Assembly: GCA_020860755.1 (NCBI GenBank)
Contig: JAJBTQ010000034.1
Location: 1-58,272, forward strand
Direction of reading: 5' to 3'
Origin: Lachnospiraceae bacterium
GTDB taxonomy: Bacteria > Bacillota > Clostridia > Lachnospirales > Lachnospiraceae
Length of the DNA: 58,272 bases
Below, one piece after another: positions 11,491-26,344 of this stretch. The notes under the pieces are model-generated. The model was given only the letters and a program-made list of their open reading frames with translations, did not search any database and had not been told where the DNA came from. Every line of letters starts with the position of its first letter. Position 1 is the stretch's first letter. A program made the translations under genes and the position numbers.

Positions 11491-11534
11491 AAAAGGAGAG
11501 TGGGATATATTGCGTATCCGCTCTCCTTTTGTTA
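11491..11534 (+). terminator. Terminator of the Rid gene, overlapping the next promoter
   Basis: AAAAGGAGAG (11491-11500) pairs with CTCTCCTTTT (11521-11530), and the inner GGATA/TATCC extends the stem. A short T-rich tail follows. The -35 and spacer of the LysR promoter lie inside its loop and 3' arm. Confidence 0.75.
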
Positions 11535-11538
11535 TACT
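11510..11538 (+). promoter_or_regulatory. Promoter of the LysR-molybdenum reductase operon
   Basis: TTGCGT (11510-11515), 17 bases, TATACT (11533-11538). It is embedded in the preceding terminator hairpin. No obvious LysR palindrome (T-N11-A) was assigned. Confidence 0.6.
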
Positions 11539-11594
11539 TAAGACACTTAAAATCAGAAGAGTAAAACCTGAAGTAATCATAAGGAGAGTTAGCC

Positions 11595-12536
11595 ATGGCG
11601 GAGCCAAAATATCTGCATATCAATCTGCTTCAAATGCAATATTTTCTCGGAGTTGCCTCCTGCAGCAGCTTTACGAAGGCGGCGCAGCTTCTGTATACGA
11701 CACAGTCCACATTAAGCAAGACGATCTCCTCTCTGGAGCAGACTTTGGATGTCACGCTTTTTATCCGGAGTAAAAAACAGGTTACGTTAACGGAGGCCGG
11801 ACAGCATCTGTATGACAGGTGGAGCGTGATCCTTCGGGATATCGAAAAGTCGCTGGATGAAAGCCGTGTCCTGCAGGGAGGATACAACCAGTTTCTCGCC
11901 ATAGGCATTCTGGATTCCCAGAACTCGGAGAAGATCACGGCGCCTATTGTGCGGGGATTTTTGCAGAAGCATCCCCTTACCAATATCTCTGTCTCGGCAT
12001 GTCAGACACAGGAGTTGCAGAAAAGTCTGGTCTGCGACAATTTAGACATTGTGTTTACGGTGCTCTACGATCTGGAGCAGATGGGCAATCCGGCCTTTGA
12101 CTCTTTGATCTTTGACGAGTGCCCTCACAGTGTCTGCATGCTGGCGGACAATCCGCTTGCCAGCCGGGAGACCCTGACGGTTGCCGATTTAAAGGACAGT
12201 CATTTTGTCGGGATTTCACCTCTCTATCTTCCCAGTTACTGTGGGATGCTGGAAGATCTGTGCGTGCCGTACGGCTTCCGGCCTCAATACATCCGCTATG
12301 CGATCAATGCGATGTCCCAGCTGTACAATCTCATCGAACCGAATGACATCTTTATCTGTGACCAGAATTACAACGGATATAATAATCCGGATATGCCTCA
12401 TCTTCAGTTTCGTCCGCTGATCGACACGCACAGCGGAGTGGCCGCTGTCTGGAAGAAAAGCAATACCAAGGAGGAGCTGAAGATGTTTATCGATCAGATC
12501 CGCACCTATCAGGAGGAAAAAGCGAATGTTCTTTGA
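11595..12536 (+). CDS. LysR-family transcriptional regulator
   Basis: 313 residues, with RBS AAGGAGAG seven bases before the ATG. N-terminal helix-turn-helix: LQMQYFLGVASCSSFTKAAQ then TTQSTLSKTISSLEQTL. The rest is the periplasmic-binding-like effector domain typical of LysR proteins. LysR activators usually regulate an adjacent operon in response to a small metabolite. Unusually the gene is not divergent but is the first gene of the operon it probably controls, and its last 11 bases overlap the start of the molybdopterin oxidoreductase gene. The inducer is unknown; it may be the substrate of that enzyme. Confidence 0.92.
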   Translation: MAEPKYLHINLLQMQYFLGVASCSSFTKAAQLLYTTQSTLSKTISSLEQTLDVTLFIRSKKQVTLTEAGQHLYDRWSVILRDIEKSLDESRVLQGGYNQFLAIGILDSQNSEKITAPIVRGFLQKHPLTNISVSACQTQELQKSLVCDNLDIVFTVLYDLEQMGNPAFDSLIFDECPHSVCMLADNPLASRETLTVADLKDSHFVGISPLYLPSYCGMLEDLCVPYGFRPQYIRYAINAMSQLYNLIEPNDIFICDQNYNGYNNPDMPHLQFRPLIDTHSGVAAVWKKSNTKEELKMFIDQIRTYQEEKANVL

Positions 12537-15204
12537 TGGAAAAGATTGGAACAATATCATGCATGATACCCGGATCGAGGGTCTGGACGCGGCTGTGGAG
12601 GGCAGCCGGTTTTTTGATACCTGCGAGCCGAAGGTGCTGGAGCCTGAGACGGAAGAGCGGGTCATCAAGACAGCCTGCCGTGCCTGCATTGCCAATTGCG
12701 GCGTTCTGGCTTATGTAAAAAACGGTCGTGTCGTGAAGCTGGAAGGCAACCCGATCGATCCCATGAGCCGGGGACGGATGTGCGCCAAAGGCCTTTCAGG
12801 AATTCAGGCGCTTTATAATCCGAATCGGAATAAATATCCTTTAGAGCGCGTCGGAGAGCGCGGCGGCGGAAAATGGCACCGCATCACCTGGGATGACGCC
12901 CTGCACAAGATAGCTTTTCATCTCATGGATATAAGGGAAAAATACGGACCTCAGGCGGTATTCGGCTCCACCGGAGGCGGCGGAAACCCGGAGGTCTGGA
13001 GTGTCTGTCGTTTCTGTGACATCTTCGGGACACCCAATTGGTTTGAGCCGGGCAGCGCTCAGTGCTATCTGCCGCGCGTACTCGGATATACGATGATGTA
13101 CGGCGGGGTGGATCCCAGCATTGCGGACTCCAATGCGCTGGAGCTCTACTTTCCGGAGGACACACCGATCAAATGTCTGGTCCTGTGGGGGACGGACCCC
13201 TCCTACTCCTGTACGGCCAGCGGCGGACGCATGGTCAATGAGCTTCGGGCGAAGGGAGTCAAGACGGTTACGATCGACCCGCGGTTTACACCGGACGCGG
13301 CAAAGGCTGATGTGTGGCTCGCGCCCCGTCCCGGGACAGACGTGGCTCTTATGCTCTCCTGGATTCGCTATATTCTGGACAACAAGCTGTATGACGAGGA
13401 TTTTGTCATGCACTGGACGGATCTTCCCTATCTGGTGGATACGGAGACGAAGTTTATGCTCCGTCCGAAAAAGGGGGAGAACGGAGAGCCGGACACCTTT
13501 ATGGTCTGGGACGCGAAGACTAATTCTATGCAGCCTTTGGAATATCCCTGGAATGATGACCTGGATCCGGTGCTGGACGGCGCCTGGGTCGTGGACGGCA
13601 AGGAATATAAGACCGGCTACCGCCTCCTCTGGGAGCGGGTGGAGGAGTGGACGCTCGAACATGTCGGTGAAGTCTGTGAGATAGAGCCCGAGCGGATCGA
13701 GAAAGCGATCCATATGTTTACCGACAATAAGCCGAGCGGCTTAGCGATCGGTGTGGCCACCGACCAGACGCCCAATTCGGAGCAGGCGGCCATGGCGGCC
13801 TGCATCATTGACAGCCTGATGGCAAATATAGAGCGCCCCGGGGCACTGTGCCAGCGCTTCCGTGTGAGCGGCACGCTGCGTATGCCGAACTATCCGGTGC
13901 CGCAGGCGGAGAATATGCTGCCGGATGAGATGTTAAAGATCCGGCTGGGCGGCAACGAGTACAAGGGGCTGCACATCTGGTGGGGCGGACAGGGCGCGGC
14001 TATTTTGGATGCGTGTATTACGGGAAAGCCCTACCCGCTCAAGATGTGGATCGACCGTTCCGGCAACAAGTTTGGCGTGGTGGCGGAGGCCAATAAGATC
14101 GAGGAGGCGATCAAGCATCTGGACTATGTTGTCCATGCCTATATGTATCCCACTTCGATGTCGGCTTATGCGGATATCCTGATGCCGACGGAGGAATGGC
14201 TGGAGATGGATATGCTGGTGGAGACCTGCAACATGATCGTGGCCCGGCAGTCGACGACGCATCTCTGGGAGACTTGCGACGAAGCCGTATTTTTCTCCCG
14301 GCTGGCGAAAGTCTGCGCTGAAATGGGGCATGAGGGCTGCCAGAAGGCATTTGATCCCGAATTTATGGGAGACGATCTGGCCTACTGGGATACCATGGAA
14401 GAGCTGTTTGACCACTGTGTCGGCAAGATCGGCATGACATGGAATGAAGTCAAAGAGAAAGCGCCGTTCGAGTACCTGACAAAGGAAGAGTGGCGCACTT
14501 ACTATGTATACAAGCAGATTGACGAGGAGACAGGCAAGCCAAAGGGCTTTGACACACCCTCTAAAAAGATTGAGATCTATTTAGACAGCATGATCACGCT
14601 GTCCCGGACAGGACAGCCGTTTGCGAAGTGTATACTTCCGCCGGCATCGAAGGACTATGATCCGCTGCCCTACTATCTCGAGCCTCCCGAGGGCCCGATC
14701 GCCACGCCGGAGCTGGCGAAAAAGTATCCGCTGATCTTAACGAGCGGGCGGGTTCCTTTTTTCCATCACGGCACACTCCGGAATGTACCGGCCGTGCGGG
14801 AGATCTATCCGGCCCCGGAGGTCTGGATCAACCCGGTTGATGCGGAAAAATATGATATCCATACCGGTGACTGGGTATGGGTCGAGTCTCTGCGAGGCAA
14901 GATCCGCGGGAAAGGAGTCGTGACGGAGGGTATCAAGCCCGGAGCGGTCTTTATGGAGCGCTATTGGAATCCTGAGACCTTAAACACTAAGACACACGGG
15001 TGGAAAGAGATGAACGTCAACGTGCTGACGAAGGGGAGCGCGCCATATAATGATGTGGTCGGGACCTACACGCTTCGCGCATTTCTGGTCAGTGTTTCGA
15101 AAGCGGACGGCCCGCCGGAGGGCGTATGGACCAAGCCGGAAGAGTTTAAGTCCTGGCTTCCGATCGGCAGCGCACAGGGGAGGTATATCGAATGGCACAA
15201 TTAG
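12526..15204 (+). CDS. Molybdopterin-dependent oxidoreductase (DMSO reductase superfamily), catalytic subunit
   Basis: 892 residues, RBS AGGAGG. Seen: the [4Fe-4S] ligands Cys51, Cys54, Cys58 and Cys86, followed by FGTPNW, and Cys180 in GSAQCYLPRV at the place where this superfamily carries the Mo/W ligand. Cys there is as in NapA- or Psr/Phs-type enzymes, not Ser (DmsA) or Asp (NarG). The MGD-binding and C-terminal barrel domains follow (LILTSGRVPFFHH). There is no twin-arginine signal, so it works in the cytoplasm. Partner genes supply a four-cluster ferredoxin, a chaperone and an NAD(P)H-oxidising AsrA/AsrB pair, so it most likely reduces something. The substrate cannot be told; catechol dehydroxylases, acetylene hydratase-like and Psr-like enzymes are all relatives. 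Confidence 0.93.
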   Translation: MFFDGKDWNNIMHDTRIEGLDAAVEGSRFFDTCEPKVLEPETEERVIKTACRACIANCGVLAYVKNGRVVKLEGNPIDPMSRGRMCAKGLSGIQALYNPNRNKYPLERVGERGGGKWHRITWDDALHKIAFHLMDIREKYGPQAVFGSTGGGGNPEVWSVCRFCDIFGTPNWFEPGSAQCYLPRVLGYTMMYGGVDPSIADSNALELYFPEDTPIKCLVLWGTDPSYSCTASGGRMVNELRAKGVKTVTIDPRFTPDAAKADVWLAPRPGTDVALMLSWIRYILDNKLYDEDFVMHWTDLPYLVDTETKFMLRPKKGENGEPDTFMVWDAKTNSMQPLEYPWNDDLDPVLDGAWVVDGKEYKTGYRLLWERVEEWTLEHVGEVCEIEPERIEKAIHMFTDNKPSGLAIGVATDQTPNSEQAAMAACIIDSLMANIERPGALCQRFRVSGTLRMPNYPVPQAENMLPDEMLKIRLGGNEYKGLHIWWGGQGAAILDACITGKPYPLKMWIDRSGNKFGVVAEANKIEEAIKHLDYVVHAYMYPTSMSAYADILMPTEEWLEMDMLVETCNMIVARQSTTHLWETCDEAVFFSRLAKVCAEMGHEGCQKAFDPEFMGDDLAYWDTMEELFDHCVGKIGMTWNEVKEKAPFEYLTKEEWRTYYVYKQIDEETGKPKGFDTPSKKIEIYLDSMITLSRTGQPFAKCILPPASKDYDPLPYYLEPPEGPIATPELAKKYPLILTSGRVPFFHHGTLRNVPAVREIYPAPEVWINPVDAEKYDIHTGDWVWVESLRGKIRGKGVVTEGIKPGAVFMERYWNPETLNTKTHGWKEMNVNVLTKGSAPYNDVVGTYTLRAFLVSVSKADGPPEGVWTKPEEFKSWLPIGSAQGRYIEWHN

Positions 15205-15809
15205 CAATGGTCGTGGACTTGGATCGCTGTATCGGCTGCCGCGGCGGCTGTCAGGTCGGATGCAAGACAGAAAACAAGATCGCGCTGGGGCCCTCCCGAA
15301 GCACCTTTTATACCATGGGTCCGACTGGGCATTTCCCGGATATCGAGATGTATTTTATGCCGGTCATGTGCCAGCAGTGCAAATATCCGACCTGTACGGA
15401 AGTTTGCCCTACCGGAGCCTGTTACAAGGACGAGGAGGACGGTGTGATCTATATCGACCGGGAGGTCTGTATCGGCTGTCAGAGCTGTATGCGCGCCTGC
15501 CCTTTTGAGTGCAACCTGTTCAACAGTGAACTGGTCGTCATGGACAAGTGCAATCTCTGTGTTCAGAGACGGGATGAGGATATAGAGCCCGCCTGTGTGA
15601 GAAATTGTGTCGGCAGAGCCCTGCATGTCGGAGATATCGAGGACCCCGAGAGTGAAGTGTCAAAGCTTCTGGCGGAAAATGAGGGGCATGTCTACACCTT
15701 AAAGGACGAGAACGGGAACGAGCCGTCCGGCAGATTTATCCTCAGAAAATGCAAGTGGATCGAAGATCTGCCGTTTGAGTACGAGCGAAAGCTGAGAGGG
15801 GAGATATAG
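15192..15809 (+). CDS. Four-cluster ferredoxin subunit (DmsB/NrfC-like)
   Basis: 205 residues, overlapping the catalytic gene by 13 bases. Four groups of four cysteines are visible: CIGCRGGCQVGC, CQQCKYPTCTEVCP, CIGCQSCMRACP, and CNLC with ACVRNC. This is the DmsB pattern that wires electrons into molybdopterin subunits through four [4Fe-4S] clusters. No membrane anchor gene (DmsC/NrfD type) follows, so the complex is probably soluble. It would carry electrons from the AsrA-like protein to the catalytic subunit (inferred from order). Confidence 0.94.
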   Translation: MAQLAMVVDLDRCIGCRGGCQVGCKTENKIALGPSRSTFYTMGPTGHFPDIEMYFMPVMCQQCKYPTCTEVCPTGACYKDEEDGVIYIDREVCIGCQSCMRACPFECNLFNSELVVMDKCNLCVQRRDEDIEPACVRNCVGRALHVGDIEDPESEVSKLLAENEGHVYTLKDENGNEPSGRFILRKCKWIEDLPFEYERKLRGEI

Positions 15810-15810
15810 T

Positions 15811-16494
15811 ATGGAGAAAAAAGATGAGATCGTTACCCTCATAAGACAACGGGCGGACATGTATCGGTTTTTGGCCCGGCTCTATGTATTGGAAGTGGAT
15901 GCGGAGCTGCTTTCCAGGATGAAACAGATGGTGTTTCCCACGGACTGCACGGATATTGACTTAGCGGACGGGTATGAGCAGTTAAAGCAGTATCTCGACA
16001 CGGTCGCGGATTCGGAGCCGGAGGAGGGACAGCAGAGCATGGAGGACGCTGTCATCGACCTCGAGGTCGAGTACGCGCGGATCTTTTTGGCTGCGGGTGT
16101 CGCCAGCGGTGGCGCGGCTTTTCCCTATGAATCGGTATACACCAGTGAGGACCATCTGGTCAATCAGGAGGCCTTTGGCGATGTGGCCATCCTGTATGCG
16201 GCAAAGGGACTTAAGGCCCGGGAGGACATGTATCGGATCCCCGATGACCATGCCGGCCTGGAGTTTGAATATATGGCCAGACTCTGCGACGCGGCGGTTG
16301 CGGCTGCCGAGGCGGAGGACGAGGCGGGATTAGACGAGAGCATGCAGGAGCAAAGGACCTTTTACAGGGATCATCTGCGTTGGATCGCCATGTTTGGCGA
16401 GGATATCCGGAAATACGCATCGACGGACTTCTTCCGCGCCATCGGAAGGATCACGAGGGGATTTATGACAGAGGAGACAGCCCTGCTCAGATAG
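15811..16494 (+). CDS. TorD/DmsD-family molybdoenzyme chaperone
   Basis: 227 residues, beginning two bases after the ferredoxin stop. All-helical, acidic and without membrane spans. The features of the family are RADMYRFLARLYVLEVDAELL at the front, an FPYESVYTSEDHL stretch and DHAGLEFEYMARLC, which matches the family's (E/D)PxDHxxxEL(E)FM core. These chaperones hold the apo-catalytic subunit for cofactor insertion. As the catalytic subunit has no Tat signal, its job here would be cofactor loading rather than export proofreading. Confidence 0.87.
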   Translation: MEKKDEIVTLIRQRADMYRFLARLYVLEVDAELLSRMKQMVFPTDCTDIDLADGYEQLKQYLDTVADSEPEEGQQSMEDAVIDLEVEYARIFLAAGVASGGAAFPYESVYTSEDHLVNQEAFGDVAILYAAKGLKAREDMYRIPDDHAGLEFEYMARLCDAAVAAAEAEDEAGLDESMQEQRTFYRDHLRWIAMFGEDIRKYASTDFFRAIGRITRGFMTEETALLR

Positions 16495-16504
16495 GAGTAA
16501 TAAG

Positions 16505-17560
16505 ATGGGATATTATCTGACGAAAGAACAGGTCAATGATATATTGGAACAGCTGCGCGGGACTACGAAAGTCTGTGCGCCGAAAGCGATCACGCGCCGG
16601 GGACGCGGAAAAGGAAAGCCCGAGATCCGTTACGGAGAGATCCGGGATTTTTCGGAGATCGTTTTCGATCAGAAGGCGGACTACGGTCCGAAAGAGATCA
16701 TCTACCCGGTCATGCAGACCCTGCTTAAGTTTGCTGTGACGGAGGTGATCGTCAGTGAACTGGAAGACGAGCGGGATATCCTGATCCTTGCCCGCCCCTG
16801 CGACATCAATGCGATCCGCAGGCTGGACCAGATCTTTTTAAAAAACGGCGGGAACCCGGAGTATTACTATGCCCGGCTTAGAGAGAAAGCCAAATTTATC
16901 CTCTTAGAGTGTACACAGAGCTTTGAGACGTGTTTTTGTGTATCCATGGGCTCCAACATCGCCACGGACTATGCCGCCGCGGTGCGCTTTGATCCGGAGG
17001 GGATGCTGGTGGAGGTAAAGGACGAATCGCTGCTGCCGGTCTTTTCCTGCGGGGAGGAGAGAGACTTTGAGCCGGAGTTTGTAAAGGAGAACCTGCGGAC
17101 GGTTCAGGTACCGGACATCCCGGACCGCAGCTACTTAAGCGACATCATCGGGTTGGAATACTGGGCGCAGTTTACGGACCGCTGCATCCTGTGCGGAGGA
17201 TGCAATACCGTATGTCCCACCTGCACCTGTTTTGACACAAATGATATCATCTACAACGAGTCAAGTCTGGAGGGCGAGCGGCGTCGTACCTGGTCATCCT
17301 GCATGCTCTCCACTTACACGGTCATGGCCGGAGGGCACGGTGTGAGGGAAGACGCCGGTGCCAACACCCGTTTTAAGACCCTGCACAAGATCTACGATTA
17401 TAAAGAGCGGTTTGGCGAGGAGAACATGTGCGTAGGCTGCGGCCGGTGTGACATGCGCTGCCCCAAGGAGATCAAATTCTCCGAGACGATCGGCGGACTT
17501 GCGCAGGAAGTGGAACTGCTGAAACAAAAAAGAGCCGAGGAAGCAAAGGAGGACGCGTGA
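16505..17560 (+). CDS. AsrA-like Fe-S electron-transfer protein
   Basis: 351 residues, close to the length of anaerobic sulfite reductase subunit A. The C-terminal half has two [4Fe-4S] motifs, CILCGGCNTVCPTC and CVGCGRCDMRCP, and the conserved WSSCMLSTYTVMAGGH between them. The N-terminal half has ILARPCDINAIRRLDQIF, as in AsrA and hydrogenase beta-type proteins. In the Asr enzyme AsrA passes electrons from AsrB to AsrC, the sirohaem subunit. No asrC is present here; a molybdopterin enzyme takes its place upstream. The next gene starts within its stop codon (TGATG). Confidence 0.9.
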   Translation: MGYYLTKEQVNDILEQLRGTTKVCAPKAITRRGRGKGKPEIRYGEIRDFSEIVFDQKADYGPKEIIYPVMQTLLKFAVTEVIVSELEDERDILILARPCDINAIRRLDQIFLKNGGNPEYYYARLREKAKFILLECTQSFETCFCVSMGSNIATDYAAAVRFDPEGMLVEVKDESLLPVFSCGEERDFEPEFVKENLRTVQVPDIPDRSYLSDIIGLEYWAQFTDRCILCGGCNTVCPTCTCFDTNDIIYNESSLEGERRRTWSSCMLSTYTVMAGGHGVREDAGANTRFKTLHKIYDYKERFGEENMCVGCGRCDMRCPKEIKFSETIGGLAQEVELLKQKRAEEAKEDA

Positions 17561-18360
17561 TGGAAAATATTACACTCCCGGAACCCCACAGGATCTTAAA
17601 GATCATGTTGGAAACCGTTGCCGAGCACACGTTTCGTGTGGAATGGCACGGGGAAAAAGTACAGCACGGGCAGTTCTTCATGCTGTCCATCCCGAAAGTC
17701 GGGGAGGCACCGATCTCAGTCAGTGCGCACGGAGACGGCTATGTGGAGTTTACGATCCGAAAAGTCGGAAAACTGACCAGCGGTCTGTTCGGGCTTCATG
17801 AGGGGGATGTCCTGTTCATGCGCGGCCCATATGGGAACTATTTCCCCGTAGACCAATTCAAAAATAAACATCTCGTTGTCATTGCCGGCGGAACCGGCCT
17901 GGCGGCGGTGCGCAGTACGATCCAGTATTTTTATGATCATCAGGATGAGATCTTAGATGTATATGCCATGGCAGGCTTTAAGGATATGAGCGCCGTCCTG
18001 TTTAAGGATGACCTGGCCAAGTTCACGGCGGCGGAAAAGTTTCACACGTCGTGGTGCCTGGACAACTCGGAAGAGCCCGGCTTTAAGAAAGGCTTTGTGA
18101 CACAGTACATACCGGAAGTCCCCTTCGAGACCTTTGGGGAGGATTACAACGTGATCATCGTCGGTCCGCCGGCCATGTTCCGCTTCGCGGCGCAGGGCTG
18201 CATGGACAAGGGGGCCACGGAGGAGCACATCTGGGTATCGTTCGAGCGAAAGATGGCGTGCGCCGTCGGGAAATGCGGACACTGCAAGATCAATGAGACC
18301 TATATTTGCCTGGAAGGGCCGGTATTTAATTACGTAGAGGGAAAAGAATTGATCGATTGA
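17560..18360 (+). CDS. AsrB-like FAD/NAD(P)H-binding reductase
   Basis: 266 residues from ATG 17560, with AAAGGAGG seven bases upstream. It belongs to the ferredoxin-NADP reductase superfamily: an FAD-binding barrel ending in RGPYGNYF, an NAD(P)-binding half with VVIAGGTGLAAVRS and NVIIVGPPAMFR, and a C-terminal cluster motif (CAVGKCGHC, then a later Cys) for a [2Fe-2S] centre as in AsrB and PyrK. It should take hydride from NAD(P)H and feed the AsrA-like protein. It is the last gene of the plus-strand operon and converges on the cofactor genes 56 bases away. No clear terminator lies between. Confidence 0.9.
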   Translation: MENITLPEPHRILKIMLETVAEHTFRVEWHGEKVQHGQFFMLSIPKVGEAPISVSAHGDGYVEFTIRKVGKLTSGLFGLHEGDVLFMRGPYGNYFPVDQFKNKHLVVIAGGTGLAAVRSTIQYFYDHQDEILDVYAMAGFKDMSAVLFKDDLAKFTAAEKFHTSWCLDNSEEPGFKKGFVTQYIPEVPFETFGEDYNVIIVGPPAMFRFAAQGCMDKGATEEHIWVSFERKMACAVGKCGHCKINETYICLEGPVFNYVEGKELID

Positions 18361-18416: not shown

Positions 18417-19448
18417 CTACATGGCGGTTCCCTTGCCGAACCCGCAGATGGGGAAGGTACAGGTGGGACAGCCCAGACAAAATCCCCCGTTTCCCAGACA
18501 GGCAAAGTCTTTTTTCTCTAAGGGGACACCGGCTGCGATGCGCGGCAGCACGATGTCAAAGACAGTCGTCTTATTGTACATGACACATCCCGGCAGCCCG
18601 CAGATGGGCGTCCCGTCGTCAAAGTAGGCCAACAGGAACATGGCGCCCGGAAGAACGGGCGAGCCGTATGTGACGATGTTGGCGCCGGACTGTTTGATGG
18701 CGCCCGGTGTCTGATCGTCCGGATCCACGCTCATGCCGCCGGTACAGGCGATCATATCCACCCCTTTTTCCTTCAGTTCCTTGATCGCAGAGACGATCTT
18801 ATTCATGTTGTCGTCCAAGACGACATGTTCGGTCGTCTCTATGCCGTATTGAGCCAGCTTTTCCTTGACAACCGGGGTGAATGTATCCTTGATCCTGCCG
18901 GAAAACACTTCGTTTCCGGTCGTGATGATTCCGGCTGTTTGCTTTTGATAAGGGATGATCCGGGTCAGCGGTTCGCTCCCGGCGGCCTCCTTTACCTGCT
19001 CCATTTTTTCTTTTTTAATAACGAGCGGGATGACGCGTGTGCCAAGCAGCTTATCTCCCGCCTTCACCGGCGTGTTGGTGTGCCGTGTGGCGATCATGAT
19101 CTGGTCGATCGAGTTGACCGCCATCAGACGTTCGATGTCGACCTGAAACAGGCCGTCTTTTACGGCCATCAGTTCGATCTTGCCCTCTTTCGGAGCGCTC
19201 GCCTCCATATATTTATTGATGCTGATATCGCGCAGGATCTCCGCGGCCTCGTCCTCGTGGTACATCGTGTCGTCTTTTTCCCACACATAGAGGTGCTCTT
19301 TTCCCAGATTTAAGAGGGCCGGGATATCCTCCGCCGTGACGACATGCCCTTTTCGAAACGGCGTATCCTTCACCTCATCCTTGATGATCCGTGTGATATC
19401 GTGACAGAGCACATGCCCCTCCGCTTCCGTTGTCTTGATCAGTTTCAT
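18417..19448 (-). CDS. MoeA-like molybdopterin-binding protein with Cys-rich tail
   Basis: 343 residues. The MoCF/MogA fold is shown by IITTGNEVFSGRIKD and CTGGMSVDPDDQTPGAI. The domains typical of full-length MoeA are shortened, so this is the second, clostridial type of molybdopterin-binding protein rather than the molybdotransferase itself. The C-terminus has a run of cysteines (Cys-x7-Cys-x2-Cys-x2-Cys-x4-Cys) ending GFGKGTAM, a possible metal site. It is the last gene of the minus-strand cofactor operon. An 11-bp tandem repeat lies just upstream of its ribosome binding site. A role in molybdenum handling is certain by context; the exact step is not. Confidence 0.85.
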   Translation of the reverse strand: MKLIKTTEAEGHVLCHDITRIIKDEVKDTPFRKGHVVTAEDIPALLNLGKEHLYVWEKDDTMYHEDEAAEILRDISINKYMEASAPKEGKIELMAVKDGLFQVDIERLMAVNSIDQIMIATRHTNTPVKAGDKLLGTRVIPLVIKKEKMEQVKEAAGSEPLTRIIPYQKQTAGIITTGNEVFSGRIKDTFTPVVKEKLAQYGIETTEHVVLDDNMNKIVSAIKELKEKGVDMIACTGGMSVDPDDQTPGAIKQSGANIVTYGSPVLPGAMFLLAYFDDGTPICGLPGCVMYNKTTVFDIVLPRIAAGVPLEKKDFACLGNGGFCLGCPTCTFPICGFGKGTAM

Positions 19449-19466
19449 ATCATCAACCCGCCTTTC

Positions 19467-19552
19467 GCTGTGATTCCTTCGCGATTTCTAATTGATTTCT
19501 TTGCGATTTCTTTGTGATTTCTTAGTGATTTTAAGCGATTTCTCAGTGATCC
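19467..19552 (-). repeat. 11-bp tandem repeat array (consensus GAAATCRCAAA)
   Basis: On the minus strand about eight diverged units follow one another with an 11-base period: GAAATCGCTTA, AAATCACTAA (one base short), GAAATCACAAA, GAAATCGCAAA, GAAATCAATTA, GAAATCGCGAA, GGAATCACAGC. The array begins inside the last codons of mobA and ends 18 bases before the next start codon. It codes for nothing apart from the mobA end. Confidence 0.85.
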
Positions 19553-20136
19553 CTAAGCGACTCATAGTCTTTTATCGTGTTTACATTGATCAGTGATTTC
19601 TTTAATTCTCCGAGGGAATTCTCCTCCACGTAAAAGACGCGGTGCGATGCGAGAAGATCCCGGAGTCTGTAGTTTTCTTCCTGTATCTTAAGATCCAGAT
19701 CCTTTAGGATCCTCCGGTGATAGATCCCGGCCGTGGGATAGATCCGCCCGCCCGCTCCCTTAACTAAGAGCGCGTCATATGATTCCGGGCTTACGCTGTC
19801 CCAGATTCCGCAAAGATGGCTGACATAAGCCCTTGCCATGAACGGCATATCACAGGCGCAGAAAAAACAGGCATCCGCATCGATCTGATGGAATACGGCA
19901 CTGATGCCGCCCATCGGTCCGACGTGGTCGGCCTCATCCCGAATGCAGGGGTAGATCTCGTGCAGGGGAACATGCGGGGTATCCGCAGAGACAGACAGAT
20001 ACAGCGGGCCGCAGGCGGCAAGTTCTTCCGCGATCCGCTCCGCGAATGTCTGCCCGTCCAAGACGAGCTCCGCCTTGGATGTTCCCATCCGGGTGCTGTT
20101 CCCGCCGGTTAAAAGTACCATGGCGATCCGGTCCAT
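19543..20136 (-). CDS. mobA: Molybdenum cofactor guanylyltransferase
   Basis: 197 residues. MobA attaches GMP to Mo-molybdopterin to make the MGD cofactor that DMSO-reductase-type enzymes need. The nucleotide-binding loop LLTGGNSTRMGTSK is intact, followed by the acidic metal site in ACDMPFM. Length fits the family. It starts one base after the moeA-mobB stop. Its presence matches the bis-MGD requirement of the adjacent reductase. The extreme C-terminus (SLRDH) runs into the tandem repeat array. Confidence 0.94.
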   Translation of the reverse strand: MDRIAMVLLTGGNSTRMGTSKAELVLDGQTFAERIAEELAACGPLYLSVSADTPHVPLHEIYPCIRDEADHVGPMGGISAVFHQIDADACFFCACDMPFMARAYVSHLCGIWDSVSPESYDALLVKGAGGRIYPTAGIYHRRILKDLDLKIQEENYRLRDLLASHRVFYVEENSLGELKKSLINVNTIKDYESLRDH

Positions 20137-20137
20137 A

Positions 20138-21988
20138 TCATGTCTCCCGTGAAAAATAATCCCAAATAAACTGTGCGATCCGCTCCGGCTGATTTAAGTC
20201 AAATACCGGGATATCCGGGGGAAAGCCGTCCGCGCCCCTTACGTCTGTGGCGATGCCGGCCAGCGTGGCCGTATCACTCACAGGGCTCTCGGAGTTCCCG
20301 TCCCGGACGATCTCGATCTTCGGATAGTCCGTCCACTTAAATCCCTCGAGCAGGATCAGATCCGCGTCAGGGAATGCGTTTATGAGTGCCCGCTCCGAAG
20401 TGCTCTCCCGTCGAACGACCATGGAGAGATCATCGGAAAAAATGGCGGTGCCGCAGGCTCCGGCCTGTCTTTGCCGGTAGGTATCGGTGCCCGGAACATC
20501 CGGGTCAAAGCCGTGGGCGTCGTGTTTTAAGACGGCTACGCTCCAGCCCATGTCCGCGAATGCGGGGATCAGGCTTTCGATCAGCGTGGTCTTGCCGGAG
20601 TTTTTTACGCCTGAGATCGCAAAGATACGAGGTCCGCTCGCTGTACCGCAGACGGAAGCATCCGAGCCGGCCAAAGATAAGCCGGCCGTATCCTGGTCGG
20701 GAAGATCTTCCGACCTCTCAAGAAGACACACCGACACGAGCTCTCCCGATTTTAAGGACGGGGAGCCCGGTGCAATGTCCACGAGGCAGTTGCAGTGCCG
20801 CATGGAGGCAAGGACGCCGGAAGAGTGTTCCACACCGGGCACTCCCGGTGCATCCGGCAGATATACGGCGCCATCAATATAGCGTGCCCGGATGAAGCGT
20901 CTTCCGGGGCTGGCCTTTGGAAAATCATTTTTTAAGATGCCGCAGACCCGCTTGATCCGAAGCGTGTGGTCTCCGGTCATTTTTTCCAGCATCGGGCGGA
21001 GCAAAAGCTCCAGGTTCCCCAGTGCGCCGAACGGATTGCCGGACAGGCTGACGATCGGCACCCCCTGATACAGGGAAAAGATCGTCGGCATTCCCGGCTT
21101 AAACCTTACGCGCCAGAACAGTTTCTTTGCTCCGAGCCTGTCAATGACATCGTGCAGGATGTCCTTTTTCCCGACGGATACACCGCCTGTCGTGAGGACG
21201 AGATCTGCGCCCTTATCCACGGCTTTTTGGATCGCCTGTGCCACGGTGTCGGCGTCATCGGGGAGATGAGCGCACCACTGCGCGGGCACGCCGAGCTCGC
21301 AAAGCCGCATCTTAAGCAGCAAAAGGTTGCTGTTGTATATCTTTCCGGGGGCGAGATCCTGACCCGCCTCCACCAGTTCGTCGCCGGTCGTAAACAGTGC
21401 GATGCGGGGGATCTCAATGACCGGAACAGATGCCGTGCCCATGGCGGCCAGATTGGCGATGCCGACGCTGTCTAAGCGCTCTCCGGCGCGGAGCATGCAG
21501 ATGCCTTTTTTAAAATCCTCGCCCCGGTCACAGAAGTTCCCGTGGGGCGGGACAGAGTCATAGACTGCCACTGTCTCCTCTCCGTAATCGGTGTCTTCCT
21601 GCCAGACGCAGCAGTCACAGCCGGCCGGGATCGGTGCGCCGGTCATGATGCGGACGGCTTCTCCGGGCTGTACGGTCCGGTCGGGATAATCTCCCGCATC
21701 GATCTCTTCTGTTACGCGCAGAAACACAGGATGCTCCTTTGTCGCATCCGCGATATCGGCGGAACGGCAGGCGTACCCGTCTATGGGAGACCGGTCAAAC
21801 GGAGGGTTATCCATCTCCGTATACATGTCTTTCGCCAGGATCCTTCCGTCGGCGTCCGACAGGGAGACCGTCTCCGTCCGGGTGATCGGTGTGGTGTGGG
21901 AGACTATGATCTCCACCGCTTCCTCCAGTGTGATATGTTCGCGGTAGACATCGGCCGCTTGCTCCTCTTTCTTCTCCGGTACGCTCAT
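20138..21988 (-). CDS. MoeA-MobB fusion: molybdopterin molybdotransferase plus GTP-binding adapter
   Basis: 616 residues in two parts. Residues 1 to about 410 are MoeA: PPFDRSPIDGYACRS, VRIMTGAPIPAG, the MoCF core TTGGVSVGKKD and SGNPFGALGNLELLLRP. It inserts molybdate into adenylylated molybdopterin. After a linker of about 40 residues, the C-terminal part is MobB, with Walker A GVKNSGKTTL and a Leu-Leu-Glu-Gly-Phe-Lys strand. MobB helps MobA in MGD formation. A fusion of these two steps, next to mobA, would place metal insertion and nucleotide attachment in one protein. Confidence 0.93.
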   Translation of the reverse strand: MSVPEKKEEQAADVYREHITLEEAVEIIVSHTTPITRTETVSLSDADGRILAKDMYTEMDNPPFDRSPIDGYACRSADIADATKEHPVFLRVTEEIDAGDYPDRTVQPGEAVRIMTGAPIPAGCDCCVWQEDTDYGEETVAVYDSVPPHGNFCDRGEDFKKGICMLRAGERLDSVGIANLAAMGTASVPVIEIPRIALFTTGDELVEAGQDLAPGKIYNSNLLLLKMRLCELGVPAQWCAHLPDDADTVAQAIQKAVDKGADLVLTTGGVSVGKKDILHDVIDRLGAKKLFWRVRFKPGMPTIFSLYQGVPIVSLSGNPFGALGNLELLLRPMLEKMTGDHTLRIKRVCGILKNDFPKASPGRRFIRARYIDGAVYLPDAPGVPGVEHSSGVLASMRHCNCLVDIAPGSPSLKSGELVSVCLLERSEDLPDQDTAGLSLAGSDASVCGTASGPRIFAISGVKNSGKTTLIESLIPAFADMGWSVAVLKHDAHGFDPDVPGTDTYRQRQAGACGTAIFSDDLSMVVRRESTSERALINAFPDADLILLEGFKWTDYPKIEIVRDGNSESPVSDTATLAGIATDVRGADGFPPDIPVFDLNQPERIAQFIWDYFSRET

Positions 21989-22021
21989 GTGCTGTACTCC
22001 TTATGTGTGAATTATATGTAT

Positions 22022-22957
22022 TTAGCTGCGGGCGCAGTCGTGCGCACTTCCCCGCAGGATATCGATCCCGTGGTCTAAGTTCGGAAGCAGGAACGTAAGC
22101 GCCTCTTCCACCGCTTTCGGGCTGCCTGGGAGGTTGATGATCAGGGATTTCCCCCGGATCCCGGACACGGCTCTGCTGAACATGGCGCGGGGTGTGATCT
22201 CCATGGAATAGGCGCGGATGGCCTCGGCGATCCCGTTGGCCATACGGTCACAGACTGCGACGGTGGCCTCCGGGGTGATATCCCGTTCGGAAAATCCGGT
22301 GCCGCCGGTAGTCAGGATCACATCCGGCTGACGCTGATCCGCGAGACGGATCAGTTCGTGCTCTAATGTTTCCTGCTCATCGGGGAGCAAAGAGGTCTCG
22401 AGCACTTCATAGCTGGCCTCTTTCAGCATTTGAACGATGACAGGTCCGCTTTTATCTTCCCGTTCGCCTGCGGCTCCCTTGTCGCTTAAGGTAACCACAG
22501 CGGCGGTATACGGTCTGTCTTTTTTTGGTGTGCTCATGATGATCTCATCTCCTTTTTTTATGGTTCCGCCTGTCATGACCCGGGCAAACACGCCCTCTCT
22601 CGGCATGATGCAGTCTCCCATGGTCTGCCAGATCCGGCAGTGGTCGTGGCATTCCTTTCCGATCTGCGTGATCTCCAGAACTGCCTCTCCGATCTGAAGC
22701 TGCGTTCCGACCGGAAGATCTTTTAGATCAAGGCCCTCGACAATGAGGTTTTCCCCAAACGCTCCGGCCTCTACTCCGGCGCCTCGGGAGTTAAATTCCC
22801 GGATGCGCTCGGCGGGCAGCAGGCTTACCTGCCGGTGCCAGTTTCCGCTGTGGGCATCCTCTTCAATGCCCCAGTCCTCTGTGAGTACTGCCTCTTCCAC
22901 CCCGCGTTTCGGGGTTCCTTTTTTTTCACTGATGCAGATGTATGCCAGTTTTCCCAT
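22022..22957 (-). CDS. MOSC domain - MogA/MoaB fusion protein
   Basis: 311 residues. Residues 1 to about 145 are a MOSC domain (GIEEDAHSGNWHRQVSLL, GAFGENLIVEGLD, and a Cys in GKECHDHCRIW), a molybdenum-sulfur-carrier fold. Residues about 148-311 are MogA/MoaB: VVTLSDKGAAGEREDKSGP and LTTGGTGFSERDITPEAT, the molybdopterin adenylyltransferase that primes the cofactor for MoeA. The fusion is a known arrangement in Clostridia. It lies between moaA and moeA-mobB on one transcript. Confidence 0.92.
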   Translation of the reverse strand: MGKLAYICISEKKGTPKRGVEEAVLTEDWGIEEDAHSGNWHRQVSLLPAERIREFNSRGAGVEAGAFGENLIVEGLDLKDLPVGTQLQIGEAVLEITQIGKECHDHCRIWQTMGDCIMPREGVFARVMTGGTIKKGDEIIMSTPKKDRPYTAAVVTLSDKGAAGEREDKSGPVIVQMLKEASYEVLETSLLPDEQETLEHELIRLADQRQPDVILTTGGTGFSERDITPEATVAVCDRMANGIAEAIRAYSMEITPRAMFSRAVSGIRGKSLIINLPGSPKAVEEALTFLLPNLDHGIDILRGSAHDCARS

Positions 22958-23005
22958 GGGGTAATCTCCACGTGTTATCTTTTGGCTTTGATGGACGGGG
23001 TTCGC

Positions 23006-23971
23006 TCACCCGCCGATCTTGACCATATCCTCGAGTCCGGGTGTCTGTGCCTCGGCCTCAAAACAGCTCATCGTAGGCTTTTCATCGATCGCGGTTTCTA
23101 AAAGTTCCCGGACCTTCTCATCCTTTCCGTCCCGCAGTGCAGCCCGGACATTTTCCTTTGCCTCAAAACACAGGCAGGGCTTTATATCCCCCTTTGCACT
23201 TAAGCGGATCCGGTTGCAGCGGCTGCAAAACGACGAGTACACTGGGCTGATAAAGCCGACGCTTCCGCAAAAGCCCGGGATCCGGTAATAGACGGCCGGG
23301 CCGTTTCCGTGTTTTTCTTTATCCGGCACAATGTCCGGATACTTATTTTTTATATCCGCAAAAAGGTCAACGTTTGCGACAGGCTCAAACAGTTTCCCGT
23401 TTTTGATCGGCATCTGTTCGATAAAACGGACGTCAAGCGGACGCTTACTGGCCAGCAAAAGCAGCGGCTCCCAGTCCGTCTCATTTATGCCTTTTAAGAG
23501 CACTGCGTTTACCTTGACCCGGATTCCGCTCGTAAGCGCGGCTTCGATGGAGTCGAGCACACTGCTTAGCTCATTAAAGCCGGTGATGGTCCGATACGTC
23601 TCCGGATCCGGCGTGTCGAGGCTGATATTGACGCCGTCTAAGCCGGCCTCTAGAAGTTCCGGAAGATACTGCTTGAAAAGGACTCCGTTGGTGGTCATGG
23701 TCACCTGCTGTACACCGGGGATCTGTTTGATCATTTTTACGAGAGAGGGGCAGCCCAGCCGCACCAGCGGCTCGCCGCCGGTGATTTTAAAAACCGTGAT
23801 ACCCAGCGTGACAGCCTGTCGGCAGACCCGTTCGATCTCTTCGTAGGTCAGGATCTCCGACATGGGGACGCACTCGATCCCGTTCGGCATACAGTAGACA
23901 CAGCGCAGATTGCACCGGTCCGTGATGGAAATCCTCATGTAGTTGATCTCTCTGCCATATCGATCTCTCAT
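23006..23971 (-). CDS. moaA: GTP 3',8-cyclase
   Basis: 321 residues. Radical-SAM enzyme that converts GTP to the cyclic intermediate processed by MoaC. N-terminal cluster motif [11 protein letters not shown]-binding KITGGEPL, and the second MoaA-specific cluster [20 protein letters not shown] are all present. The protein ends in Gly-Gly, as active MoaA does. The start overlaps the moaC stop by four bases (ATGA). Confidence 0.96.
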
Positions 23972-24468
23972 TTTTCTTCCTCAGTTTCCTCCGAGCGGAG
24001 ATAGTGTCCGCTCTTTCCGCCCTGTTTTTCCATGAGACAGATCTCTCCGATCTCCATGGAACGGTCTATGGCCTTGCACATGTCATAGATGGTGAGAAGC
24101 GCCGTGCTCACTCCGGTAAGCGCCTCCATCTCCACTCCGGTCTGCCCGGCACACTGCACCGTGCAGGAAGCAGTGATGATCCCCTGTTTTTGATCTGTCT
24201 CAAAATCCACGCTGCACTTTTGGATCAGCAGCGGATGGCAAAGCGGGATCAGGGAGGACGTCTGTTTGGCGCCCTGGATGCCTGCCACTCTGGCGACGCC
24301 CAACACATCGCCTTTTTTGGCCGTGCCGCCGAGGATGGCGTCCATCACTTCGCGGCTGACTCTGATCCTTCCCTGCGCCGTGGCCAGGCGGGATGTAACG
24401 GGTTTTTCCGACACATCGACCATGATGGCGTTTCCGTTTTTATCGACATGGGTAAGTTCCTTGCTCAT
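23968..24468 (-). CDS. moaC: Cyclic pyranopterin monophosphate synthase
   Basis: 166 residues. MoaC acts directly after MoaA. Characteristic segments are [24 protein letters not shown] and [23 protein letters not shown], with the conserved Lys in the latter region. The C-terminus KSGHYLR is typical. The MPT synthase genes moaD and moaE, the next step, are not in this window. Confidence 0.96.
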
Positions 24469-24495: not shown

Positions 24496-25545
24496 TCAGT
24501 CGTGAAGCAGCATCAGGGCTTCCTCTGGGATCCGGATCGCCACGCGCTCTTTTCGGGAGAGGGCGGCGGCCTGCTCTTTGCTCATCAACAGACGCATCTG
24601 AGCCCCGCTTCCGCCGGGACAGTCTAAGATGAGCTCCGATTCAAACTGCTGCTCCAAAAAATGGTTGAACGGGAGGACGGCACAGTTTTTTTCCTGAGCG
24701 GCGTCCTCCTCGATAACTTCAATATAGTGCGCGCGGATGCCGACATGGGTTAAGTCTTCCGGCACGGCCCGGTCTATTCGGAAGGTCAGATTCCAGTCGG
24801 TGGCAAAGAGCTCATGTTCCGAGAGGCGTTTTGCCACGGAAATGTTTCGGCAGCCGGAGAGTTTGGCCGCGGCGACGGTCTCCGGATTGGCGAAGAACTC
24901 TTTTTTCTCCTGGATCGTCTCCACGTGGCCTTCGTTTAACATACAGACCCGCTCGCAGAGGTGATACACCTCATCCCGGTTGTGCGTTACAAACAGGGTT
25001 GGCTTTTTTACGTATTTAAAGAGTGCTTCGAGCTCCTCCTCCACCTCCCACTTTAAGTAGGTGTCCAGTGCAGAGAGCGGCTCGTCGAGCAGCAGGATCT
25101 CGGGATCCGAGACGAGCATGCGCGCCAGCGCGACCCGCTGTTTTTGTCCGCCGGAGAGCTGTCGGGGCAGATGTCCTTCCAGTCCGCTTAAGCGGAAGCG
25201 GTCGATATATTCTCTCACCACGGCGGGATCCGGGTTTTTGCCCATCCCGATCGTGATGTTTTGTTCTACGGTCATATTCGGGAAGAGCGCATAGTCCTGG
25301 AACATGTAGCCGACTTTCCTCTCCTGCGTGATCACGTTGATCTTCTGAGCAGAGTCAAACAGAGTCCGGCCGTTTAGGATGATATGTCCCTCATCGGGAG
25401 TCTCTATGCCGGCAATGCACTTTAAGGTCATGCTCTTCCCGCAGCCGGAAGCTCCCAGTATGGCGAAAATCTCATCCTCTGTCTGAAATGCCACGTCGAG
25501 GAAAAAATTTCCGATTTGCTTTTTGATTGACACATCGATGCCCAT
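24496..25545 (-). CDS. modC: Molybdate ABC transporter ATP-binding protein
   Basis: 349 residues. The ATPase domain has Walker A GASGCGKSMT, signature LSGGQKQRVALARML, Walker B ILLLDEPLSALD and the switch His in LFVTHNRDEVY. A C-terminal region of about 100 residues after position 240 fits the regulatory/TOBE-like domain of ModC. It drives molybdate import through ModB. It starts three bases after the modB stop. Confidence 0.93.
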   Translation of the reverse strand: MGIDVSIKKQIGNFFLDVAFQTEDEIFAILGASGCGKSMTLKCIAGIETPDEGHIILNGRTLFDSAQKINVITQERKVGYMFQDYALFPNMTVEQNITIGMGKNPDPAVVREYIDRFRLSGLEGHLPRQLSGGQKQRVALARMLVSDPEILLLDEPLSALDTYLKWEVEEELEALFKYVKKPTLFVTHNRDEVYHLCERVCMLNEGHVETIQEKKEFFANPETVAAAKLSGCRNISVAKRLSEHELFATDWNLTFRIDRAVPEDLTHVGIRAHYIEVIEEDAAQEKNCAVLPFNHFLEQQFESELILDCPGGSGAQMRLLMSKEQAAALSRKERVAIRIPEEALMLLHD

Positions 25546-25548
25546 AGA

Positions 25549-26253
25549 CTACCACCTTTGTACGTTTTTCATGTTTCGGCCTGCGACCAGGTTCATCGAC
25601 ACGATGATGCCGAACGCGATCAGCAGGATAATGACCACCCAGACGCCGGCAGTCGCATAGTCTCCGTCCTGTATGACCATGGCGATCCGCTGGGAGATCG
25701 TCGATGTTTTGTGCGGAATATTCCCCGCCAGCATGGAAGTGGCTCCATATTCACCCAGAGCCCGGGCGAACGTGAGGATGATGCCGGCCAGGATGCCGGG
25801 ACCGGAGTTGGGGATGATGATCCGCCAATAGATCTTGAATTCCGGCATGCCGAGCGTCCGCGCGGCATAGATGAGATTGGGATCCAGCTGTTCAAACGCG
25901 GCCCGCGCATTGCGGTACATCAAAGGGAAGGCGATGACGGTCGCCGCGATGATGCAGCCTGCCCATGTCTGCACGATCTTTATGCCGAGGTTGCTGTACA
26001 AAAAGCTGCCCAGAGGGCGCTTTAAGCTGAATAAGAGGAGCAGAAAAAAGCCGGCTACGGTCGGGGGGAGCACCATAGGCAGAGTTAGACAACCGTCTGC
26101 GATGGCTTTTCCTCTGGTGCCGGTCCGCACGACCCTTCCGGCTGCGAAAATGCCTATGAAAAATGAAATTCCTGTTGCGACAACCCCCGTTTTCAGTGAG
26201 ATAAACAGTGGGCTCCAGTCCAGATTGGAGAGGATGTTCATCAGATTATCCAT
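25549..26253 (-). CDS. modB: Molybdate ABC transporter permease
   Basis: 234 residues from ATG 26253, chosen because GGAGGAGG lies directly upstream; a longer reading from 26283 would begin inside the intergenic hairpin. Five or six membrane spans. The EAA-type coupling loop is seen at ARTLGMPEFKIYWRIIIPNS, and LTLPMVLPPTVAGFFLLLLF near the front is typical of ModB. A hairpin separates it from modA. Confidence 0.94.
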   Translation of the reverse strand: MDNLMNILSNLDWSPLFISLKTGVVATGISFFIGIFAAGRVVRTGTRGKAIADGCLTLPMVLPPTVAGFFLLLLFSLKRPLGSFLYSNLGIKIVQTWAGCIIAATVIAFPLMYRNARAAFEQLDPNLIYAARTLGMPEFKIYWRIIIPNSGPGILAGIILTFARALGEYGATSMLAGNIPHKTSTISQRIAMVIQDGDYATAGVWVVIILLIAFGIIVSMNLVAGRNMKNVQRW

Positions 26254-26278
26254 AGTGCCTCCTCCACATTTAAGGAAA

Positions 26279-26301
26279 GGCATCTGAAAAAATCAGATGC
26301 C
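26279..26301 (-). promoter_or_regulatory. Hairpin between modA and modB (partial terminator or mRNA stabiliser)
   Basis: A perfect 9-bp stem GGCATCTGA/TCAGATGCC (26279-26287, 26293-26301) with a five-base loop. On the minus (coding) strand it is followed only by TTTCC, so full termination is unlikely. It sits after the binding-protein gene and before the permease gene. Confidence 0.6.
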
Positions 26302-26344
26302 TTTTCCCGCATGATAAATTTAGTTAAGATCAAATGTTGGATGT

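Follow-up and report, generated by a model that had tools for sequence, protein, structure and literature searches.

An AsrAB-type NAD(P)H module linked to a putative molybdopterin reductase in a conserved operon of a Lachnospiraceae bacterium

The closest described relatives of the system treated here are the sulfite reductase AsrABC (TIGR02910, TIGR02911 and TIGR02912), the sulfhydrogenases, the catechol dehydroxylases, acetylene hydratase and the PhsABC/PsrABC reductases. They were compared with an operon in a 58,272-nucleotide stretch of DNA, called the window below, from a Lachnospiraceae bacterium (contig JAJBTQ010000034.1). The operon comprises genes for a LysR-family regulator, a catalytic subunit of the dimethyl sulfoxide (DMSO) reductase superfamily with a bis-molybdopterin guanine dinucleotide (bis-MGD) cofactor, a ferredoxin (Fd), a TorD chaperone, AsrA and AsrB. 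With AsrABC it shares AsrA and AsrB above the cut-offs, the cofactor cysteines and the order asrA-asrB; unlike AsrABC, it has no AsrC, its module stands after a molybdenum (Mo) subunit, a ferredoxin and TorD, and its AsrA belongs to a separate lineage with residues of its own frequent at positions 232, 244 and 264. Sulfhydrogenases (HydBG, ShyBC) carry an AsrA-like and AsrB-like NAD(P)H module on another catalyst, which is a [NiFe] hydrogenase. Their beta and gamma subunits (PDB 9nez) were the best solved relatives of both window proteins, but the window scores lay far below the cut-offs (ShyB/HydB, 115.6 against 690 and 113.3 against 750; HydG/ShyC, 141.8 against 650 and 141.4 against 600). 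Acetylene hydratase (PDB 2e7z) was the best solved match of the catalytic subunit over most of its length and shares the Cys ligand, the iron-sulfur (Fe-S) cysteines and the motif YDPLPYY; in contrast, the window protein has Ile at the position of Asp13 and is accompanied by an additional ferredoxin and electron module. PhsABC/PsrABC (PDB 2vpw) likewise combine a catalytic subunit having Cys at the ligand position with an NrfC-type ferredoxin, but the operon lacks their NrfD anchor, and its catalytic subunit scores below the PhsA cut-off and stands apart in a 28-row tree. The catechol dehydroxylases of Eggerthella and Gordonibacter, compared by their description in PMC7028382, are similar in the bis-MGD cofactor, the relation to acetylene hydratase, the ferredoxin partner and the occurrence in gut anaerobes; for dadh, cadh and hcdh in E. 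lenta the description gives twin-arginine translocation (Tat) signals along with a presumed membrane anchor, whereas the operon has AsrAB and no Tat motif. That source places these enzymes nearest to acetylene hydratase and describes them as widespread, including Clostridium ljungdahlii and Desulfitobacterium; gut catechol dehydroxylases are said to be in Coriobacteriia (PMC11887054).

The operon is proposed, with a probability of roughly two in three, to encode a bis-MGD reductase with molybdenum (or tungsten) that is soluble, cytosolic, dependent on NAD(P)H and fed by AsrAB. The first-pass annotation of the window, made from the sequence alone, had placed an AsrAB-type NAD(P)H module on a molybdopterin reductase instead of AsrC. 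This pairing was upheld by conserved linkage, TorD-AsrA fusions, a split of AsrA along a single branch, and the lack of asrC above the cut-off in all but one of the nine genomes bearing the operon. The complex itself, the path and direction of the electrons and the cytosolic site are what we infer from the encoded proteins.

All six genes named in that annotation were recovered by open reading frame (ORF) analysis and family scans (Table 1). They are tightly packed, with spacings of -11, -13, +1, +10 and -4 nt from LysR through Mo subunit, Fd, TorD and AsrA to AsrB; lysR and the Mo gene have the same direction and overlap by 11 nt. At position 11510, previously given as the start of the set, another ORF begins, and lysR begins at 11595. 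AsrA scored 390.9 bits against TIGR02910 (cut-off 323.15) and AsrB 315 bits against TIGR02911 (cut-off 288.6). The window genome (G000) comprises 1.72 Mb and is 79% complete, and genome-wide negatives hold for the assembled part. As annotated, no asrC follows asrAB; the genome-wide search with TIGR02912 resulted in five partial matches, the best with 32 bits against a cut-off of 324.1. An AsrC concealed elsewhere in the genome was considered and rejected on these partial matches, all below the cut-off, and the check for a co-regulated asrC elsewhere gave none in the genome as far as assembled. Among the nine operon genomes, asrC above the cut-off was absent from eight; the sole genome with AsrC above the cut-off (G154) carries the gene in a separate asrABC on another contig.

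A survey of 392 genomes of the same order yielded AsrA at 59 places in 57 genomes. Flanks of 1.5 kb or about 4 kb per side, shorter at contig ends, were examined at the 58 places other than the window, and an AsrC homologue was found near AsrA at all 58, at one of them (L118) as an ORF of 60 amino acids only. The AsrA tree was calculated by a quick method from 114 distinct sequences (121 extracted, 7 identical ones dropped; 57 rows per set). Mo-linked and AsrC-linked AsrA were placed on opposite sides of one branch, with a support of 100 in the Shimodaira-Hasegawa-like approximate likelihood ratio test (SH-aLRT). Residues were counted in rows of more than 300 amino acids without de-duplication. 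Fifteen cysteines are common to Mo-linked and AsrC-linked AsrA, 14 being present in every row and one in 63/63 and 49/55 rows, respectively. Position 232 is mostly G in Mo-linked rows (56/63) and R in AsrC-linked rows (48/55), position 244 is D (58/63) versus T (50/55), and position 264 is S (60/63) versus A (54/55). Because the cysteines are shared, these three positions differ and the tree is split, the Mo-linked AsrA module looks intact and appears to be evolving separately from the AsrC-linked one. Within the order, one genome (G407) has three AsrA places (L116, L159 and L165), with AsrC at each. Three loci (L026, L027 and L028) contain two consecutive AsrB-like genes behind AsrA (80-81% and 73% identity to the window AsrB); the window has one.

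Conservation of the operon was assessed by searching 299 genomes of the same family for the catalytic subunit, which was present in nine, the window's own counted. The arrangement Mo-Fd-AsrA-AsrB with a TorD domain was found in all eight family relatives (one contig begins within the Mo gene); TorD is a separate gene in four, and in the other four it forms the N-terminal part of an AsrA ORF of 573-629 amino acids. The scan of a collection of named genomes gave 155 encoding stretches, from which 80 loci were kept. Because AsrA and AsrB adjoin the Mo gene in 54 of the 80 named loci, the arrangement is far beyond chance. TorD is separate in 28 of the 54, fused to AsrA in 25 and missing in one (L051). 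The family and named-locus counts are not independent, because six of the eight family relatives recur among the named loci. AsrA, AsrB or both were lacking in 18 of the 80, and eight were cut by contig ends (L025, L047, L056, L079, L080, L083, L091 and L093). A Tat motif without AsrAB was found at 11 loci; at two (L043 and L045), a TorD-AsrA ORF ends ahead of the Fe-S domain and AsrB is missing. Five full-length TorD-AsrA fusions were scanned, including those of Parasporobacterium paucivorans and Eubacterium oxidoreducens, and all five had both domains above the cut-off; a four-gene operon with the fusion also occurs in Loigolactobacillus bifermentans. In the phylum survey, one further genome of 398 contained a clade member (G974, 60% identity), its locus being of the Tat type by eye.

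Induction through LysR, as annotated at first, is still putative. LysR was rejected as a general regulator of the operon, a LysR homologue being present within 2.5 kb upstream in only 17 of the 80 loci (co-oriented in 9, solely divergent in 8; some contigs were too short); GntR-like or unrelated genes were read upstream at other loci. At L061:12204-16782, the genes after TorD encode, in place of AsrAB, a 2-oxoacid:ferredoxin oxidoreductase of the pyruvate type (Pfam) with what reads as its small partner, and an FrhB-like protein; this set is perhaps an alternative electron partner. A second, different bis-MGD enzyme is encoded downstream at L087:17619-20198 (Sporomusa acidovorans) and at L072:12983-16192 (a Parasporobacterium metagenome-assembled genome), with 32% mutual identity; for the former the BisC/DmsA models were nearest, below the cut-off.

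In the catalytic subunit, alignments gave Cys51, Cys54, Cys58 and Cys86 as [4Fe-4S] ligands and Cys180 as the candidate metal ligand; all five were invariant across the 62 clade rows. In acetylene hydratase and PsrA, the cysteine that serves as metal ligand falls in the alignment column of Cys180, and the annotation of Cys180 as the likely Mo ligand was retained as a candidate on this column match. The predicted four-cluster ferredoxin was confirmed, with 16 of its 19 cysteines in four-cluster spacing; its closest solved chains were 6cz7_B, the partner of ArrA, and 2vpw_B. The operon thus has the bis-MGD subunit and four-cluster ferredoxin of complex iron-sulfur molybdoenzymes (Dms/Psr/Nar type), and no membrane anchor (NrfD, DmsC, NarI) was detected among its six genes. 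The best NCBIfam model for the catalytic subunit was the PhsA thiosulfate reductase NF012032 (272.1 bits, cut-off 694), followed by DmsA. Relatives in a plasmid collection showed 24-27% identity among the matches listed (30 of 1189). The first-pass annotation had called a soluble NADH-fed design unusual; this fits the part of the superfamily concerned here, but soluble NADH-fed molybdoenzymes exist elsewhere, namely assimilatory nitrate reductases and NAD-linked formate dehydrogenases.

As annotated, the catalytic subunit has no Tat motif; its N-terminus does, however, contain a Tat-like relic. Eleven homologues of the Tat type, with 57-62% identity to the window protein, were obtained from Sporomusa, Sutterella, Parasutterella, Duodenibacillus and Acidobacteriota. 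A stricter Tat pattern flagged four homologues, and RRxF[LT][KE] was used for the 11. This motif was present in 11/11 Tat-type sequences, 0/54 AsrAB loci and 11/16 uncut loci without any AsrA or AsrB. Few gaps are needed to align the N-termini of soluble rows to the Tat block; the clearest case is KKDFLSATNITGITSALNGS (L068), which pairs with RRQFLKATAVTGIAAAFGGS (L073). For the relic test, a score matrix was prepared from nine Tat blocks with the two arginine columns omitted, and each N-terminus was shuffled 1000 times. A Tat-like relic was detected at p<0.05 in 26 of 51 non-Tat rows (about 2.6 expected), the window among them (Table 1); one further row was too short, and the rows are related, hence the count does not amount to one probability.

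A gene between ferredoxin and TorD in L073 matches NrfD and DmsC, and clustering assigned genes of L077, L087 and L101 to the same family. NapG-like genes were found in 8 and NapH-like genes in 6 of the 11 Tat-type loci, those of L073 scoring below the cut-offs. The Tat rows formed one group, with a support of 99 with distant outgroups and of 92 with nearer outgroups and trimmed N-termini. Both outgroup-rooted trees had very long outgroup branches and showed the Tat clade nested among soluble rows; in the nearer-outgroup tree, the root forks had supports of 8 and 0. The root of the 28-row tree separates L068 and the Tat rows (87) from the remaining AsrAB rows (92). A derived Tat form would follow from the nesting, but a root cannot be placed reliably over outgroup branches of this length; anchor-like genes, read at several outgroup loci, argue for an anchored ancestor. 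Neither form is claimed to be the first.

An aromatic hydroxyl compound of the catechol or pyrogallol type, which would be reductively dehydroxylated, is put forward tentatively as the substrate, at clearly less than even odds. It is favoured because of the affinity to acetylene hydratase and the co-occurrence of UbiD. The profile search gave 46 distinct PDB sequences under an E-value of 1e-20, with acetylene hydratase first (240.7 bits) and PsrA at 211.6 bits; in a single-sequence search the values were 191.4 versus 165.3 bits. The rows of the 28-row tree came from the acetylene hydratase side, from PsrA and the four rows nearest to it, and from eight molybdoenzymes at greater distance. One branch (SH-aLRT 96) unites the clade with acetylene hydratase and separates both from PsrA and from six of the eight distant rows; this split is to be taken with care, as the other two distant rows, including a long plasmid row of the NasC type, are on the acetylene hydratase side. 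An earlier tree with a midpoint root, in which three groups were joined at one point, is insufficient on its own for assigning the clade to the acetylene hydratase side. The placement that the first-pass annotation had proposed as a check thus came out with acetylene hydratase and with PsrA apart among the solved enzymes compared, albeit over long branches. A 786-amino-acid molybdopterin enzyme encoded beside a ferredoxin (FdxA) and a ferritin-like protein on a Rhodococcus opacus plasmid (L182:2989-5349) groups with acetylene hydratase as well (SH-aLRT 100). Acetylene hydratase itself was rejected as the identity of the window enzyme: the position of Asp13, which follows the second Fe-S cysteine and is presumably the catalytic residue, is Ile55 in 62 of 62 clade rows.

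A UbiD-type decarboxylase homologue, by sequence a relative of hydroxyarylic acid decarboxylases, was present in 5 of the 9 operon genomes and in 27 of 290 others (Fisher one-sided p=0.00096, phylogeny ignored), and UbiD and UbiX are encoded upstream of the operon in L057 and L102, which are sister species. BaiCD-like flavoenzymes were found near the operon at six loci, and URO-D-like genes, named by reading, at five loci by BLAST and two more by eye; for the one URO-D-like gene scanned, no NCBIfam family was obtained. The neighbours at L051 are an RraA-like gene and a gene without NCBIfam match. These neighbour genes are suggestive of aromatic metabolism, but not decisive. Cultured hosts of the clade include E. 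oxidoreducens, P. paucivorans and E. ramulus, which are degraders of gallate, methoxylated aromatics and flavonoids, and also lactobacilli and Sutterella.

Several observations weigh against the proposed enzyme or its substrate. AsrC-like matches below the cut-off were obtained in two operon genomes (G103, 142 bits; G021, 96 bits). Five non-Tat loci (L037, L059, L060, L061 and L071) are without AsrA/AsrB by BLAST despite a continuing contig, and AsrA pieces halt before the Fe-S domain at L043:6310-7692, L045:5404-6792 and L060:6181-7191, where the TorD ORF extends into a degenerate AsrA-like piece. The modules of L043, L045 and L060, all from metagenome-assembled genomes of Oscillospiraceae, are apparently decayed or reduced, and because of the five loci and the curtailed pieces, AsrAB is regarded as dispensable in some lineages. 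Twin arginines outside the strict motif occur in some AsrAB-type N-termini (L036, TRRKYLAA at the equivalent place; L092, SRRVLK), so that export of some members is conceivable. As to the substrate, the clade is on a long branch, the UbiD homologue is below the VdcC decarboxylase cut-off (448 versus 650) and absent from the window genome and from G159 (E. ramulus), and lactobacilli and Sutterella are not known as aromatic degraders. The position of AsrA and AsrB next to the Mo gene could also be accidental, their real partner being a sulfite reductase AsrC or some other protein of the cell, as both exceed curated sulfite-reductase equivalog cut-offs, the genome is only 79% complete, a true asrC accompanies the operon in G154, and weaker AsrC-like matches occur in G103 and G021. 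This is very improbable, however, given that the asrC of G154 lies within its own asrABC on another contig, that no asrC exceeds the cut-off in the other eight operon genomes, that Mo-linked AsrA is a separate lineage, and that TorD and AsrA are fused in many loci.

The same NAD(P)H-driven architecture may instead act on a sulfur compound such as thiosulfate or polysulfide, on an S- or N-oxide, or on some other small acceptor. PhsA and then DmsA as the best NCBIfam models, the derivation of the AsrAB module from a sulfur enzyme and the occurrence of the clade in Sutterella and lactobacilli point in this direction; the higher score of acetylene hydratase, the separate position of PsrA in the 28-row tree, surroundings of Cys180 unlike those of PsrA, and the UbiD-type neighbours and co-occurrence point away from it. 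Because the evidence from hosts and UbiD is mixed, the aromatic substrate is regarded as tentative and this rival is kept live. It is improbable that the complex is oxidative or non-redox, i.e. a hydratase, hydroxylase or transhydroxylase in which AsrAB keeps the metal reduced or returns electrons to NAD+. Acetylene hydratase, the nearest solved enzyme, is non-redox and requires a reduced metal, and some hosts degrade gallate/pyrogallol via a pathway with a non-redox transhydroxylase; yet the Asp13 position is Ile in all clade rows, a four-cluster ferredoxin and two further electron-transfer subunits would be excessive, and L073, one of the exported relatives, encodes an anchor of the NrfD/DmsC type, typical of quinol-linked enzymes.

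In the AsrAB-fed reductase proposed here, electrons would pass from NAD(P)H to the FAD of AsrB, the AsrB [2Fe-2S] cluster and the Fe-S clusters of AsrA, and then via the four clusters of the NrfC-type ferredoxin and the [4Fe-4S] cluster of the catalytic subunit to the Cys180-bound metal, where a substrate having entered the cell would be reduced. AsrA would dock at the site used by the quinol anchor in membrane-bound relatives. TorD would load the cofactor, probably gripping the Tat-like N-terminus, which would no longer direct export; we infer that the relic serves as TorD's handle. Reductive dehydroxylation of an aromatic would reoxidize NAD(P)H for a fermenter.

Table 1. Features of the operon and its surroundings in the window.
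Feature	Position	Strand	Basis
Terminator-like hairpin in the interval between a RidA-like gene and lysR; AAAAGGAGAG...CTCTCCTTTT with GGATA/TATCC	11491..11530		read by eye
LysR-family regulator	11595..12536	+	PF00126, PF03466; AAGGAGAG ahead of ATG
bis-MGD (DMSO reductase superfamily) catalytic subunit, 892 amino acids	12526..15204	+	PF04879, PF00384, PF01568; alignments
N-terminal peptide WNNIMHDTRIEGLDAAVEGS, like the Tat signal block of exported homologues minus the twin arginine	12547..12606	+	alignment; shuffle test p=0.006
NrfC/DmsB-type ferredoxin subunit, four [4Fe-4S] motifs	15192..15809	+	PF13247; cysteine spacing
TorD/NarJ-family maturation chaperone	15811..16494	+	PF02613, 85.6 bits; PDB TorD match, E 0.00098
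AsrA-type Fe-S electron-transfer subunit	16505..17560	+	TIGR02910 above cut-off; cofactor cysteines; AsrA tree
AsrB-type subunit (FAD/NAD(P), [2Fe-2S]), GTG start	17557..18360	+	TIGR02911 above cut-off; PF00175, PF10418
Convergent molybdenum-cofactor genes: molybdopterin-binding 343-amino-acid protein, MobA, MoeA-MobB, MOSC-MoaB, MoaA, MoaC	18417..24468	-	first three by Pfam; MOSC-MoaB, MoaA and MoaC by reading translations
Molybdate ABC transporter ModCBA	24496..27340	-	named by reading translations

The hairpin ahead of lysR was not among the sites given by the consensus scan. The genome scan detected a single AsrA in the window genome and, via PF01568, a single enzyme. The convergent cofactor genes are supply and lie outside the enzyme proper; homologues of ModCBA are encoded upstream of the operon in L031. 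The 343-amino-acid molybdopterin-binding protein (18417-19448) has a cysteine-rich C-terminal tail, and its homologues share a locus with the Mo operon in L042, L052, L057, L073, L084, L090 and L102. Two cofactor genes of the window are fused, MoeA-MobB at 20138-21988 (Pfam) and MOSC-MoaB at 22022-22957 (by reading).

In the literature searched, with preprints outside its scope and subscription papers thinly covered, no description of AsrAB paired with a molybdoenzyme was found; PMC10949509, in its accessible part, deals with AsrABC only. The catalytic superfamily and the electron module are each known, and their conserved combination, with the fusions and the swap against a membrane module, was found described nowhere in that literature. 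Since Mo-linked AsrA and AsrB score above the cut-offs of their NCBIfam equivalog models, the gut and soil anaerobes that carry the operon may be counted as sulfite reducers, and hence as producers of hydrogen sulfide, even where AsrC is missing. For purification of the complex, the TorD-AsrA fusions can serve as a handle. With one catalytic clade in two forms, one having a Tat motif and, at the loci read, a membrane anchor, the other no Tat motif and an NAD(P)H module, a natural experiment on the wiring of such enzymes to metabolism is available. A new electron sink among gut anaerobes, including Eubacterium ramulus, is a prediction from the operon. More speculatively, it may represent a cytosolic NADH-fed dehydroxylase clade for plant phenolics, spanning gut Lachnospiraceae, Oscillospiraceae, lactobacilli and environmental clostridia, in which a sulfite-reductase module would replace the quinol anchor, a dead Tat signal would serve as chaperone handle, and a reductase of respiratory type would have become an NAD+-regenerating sink for fermentation.

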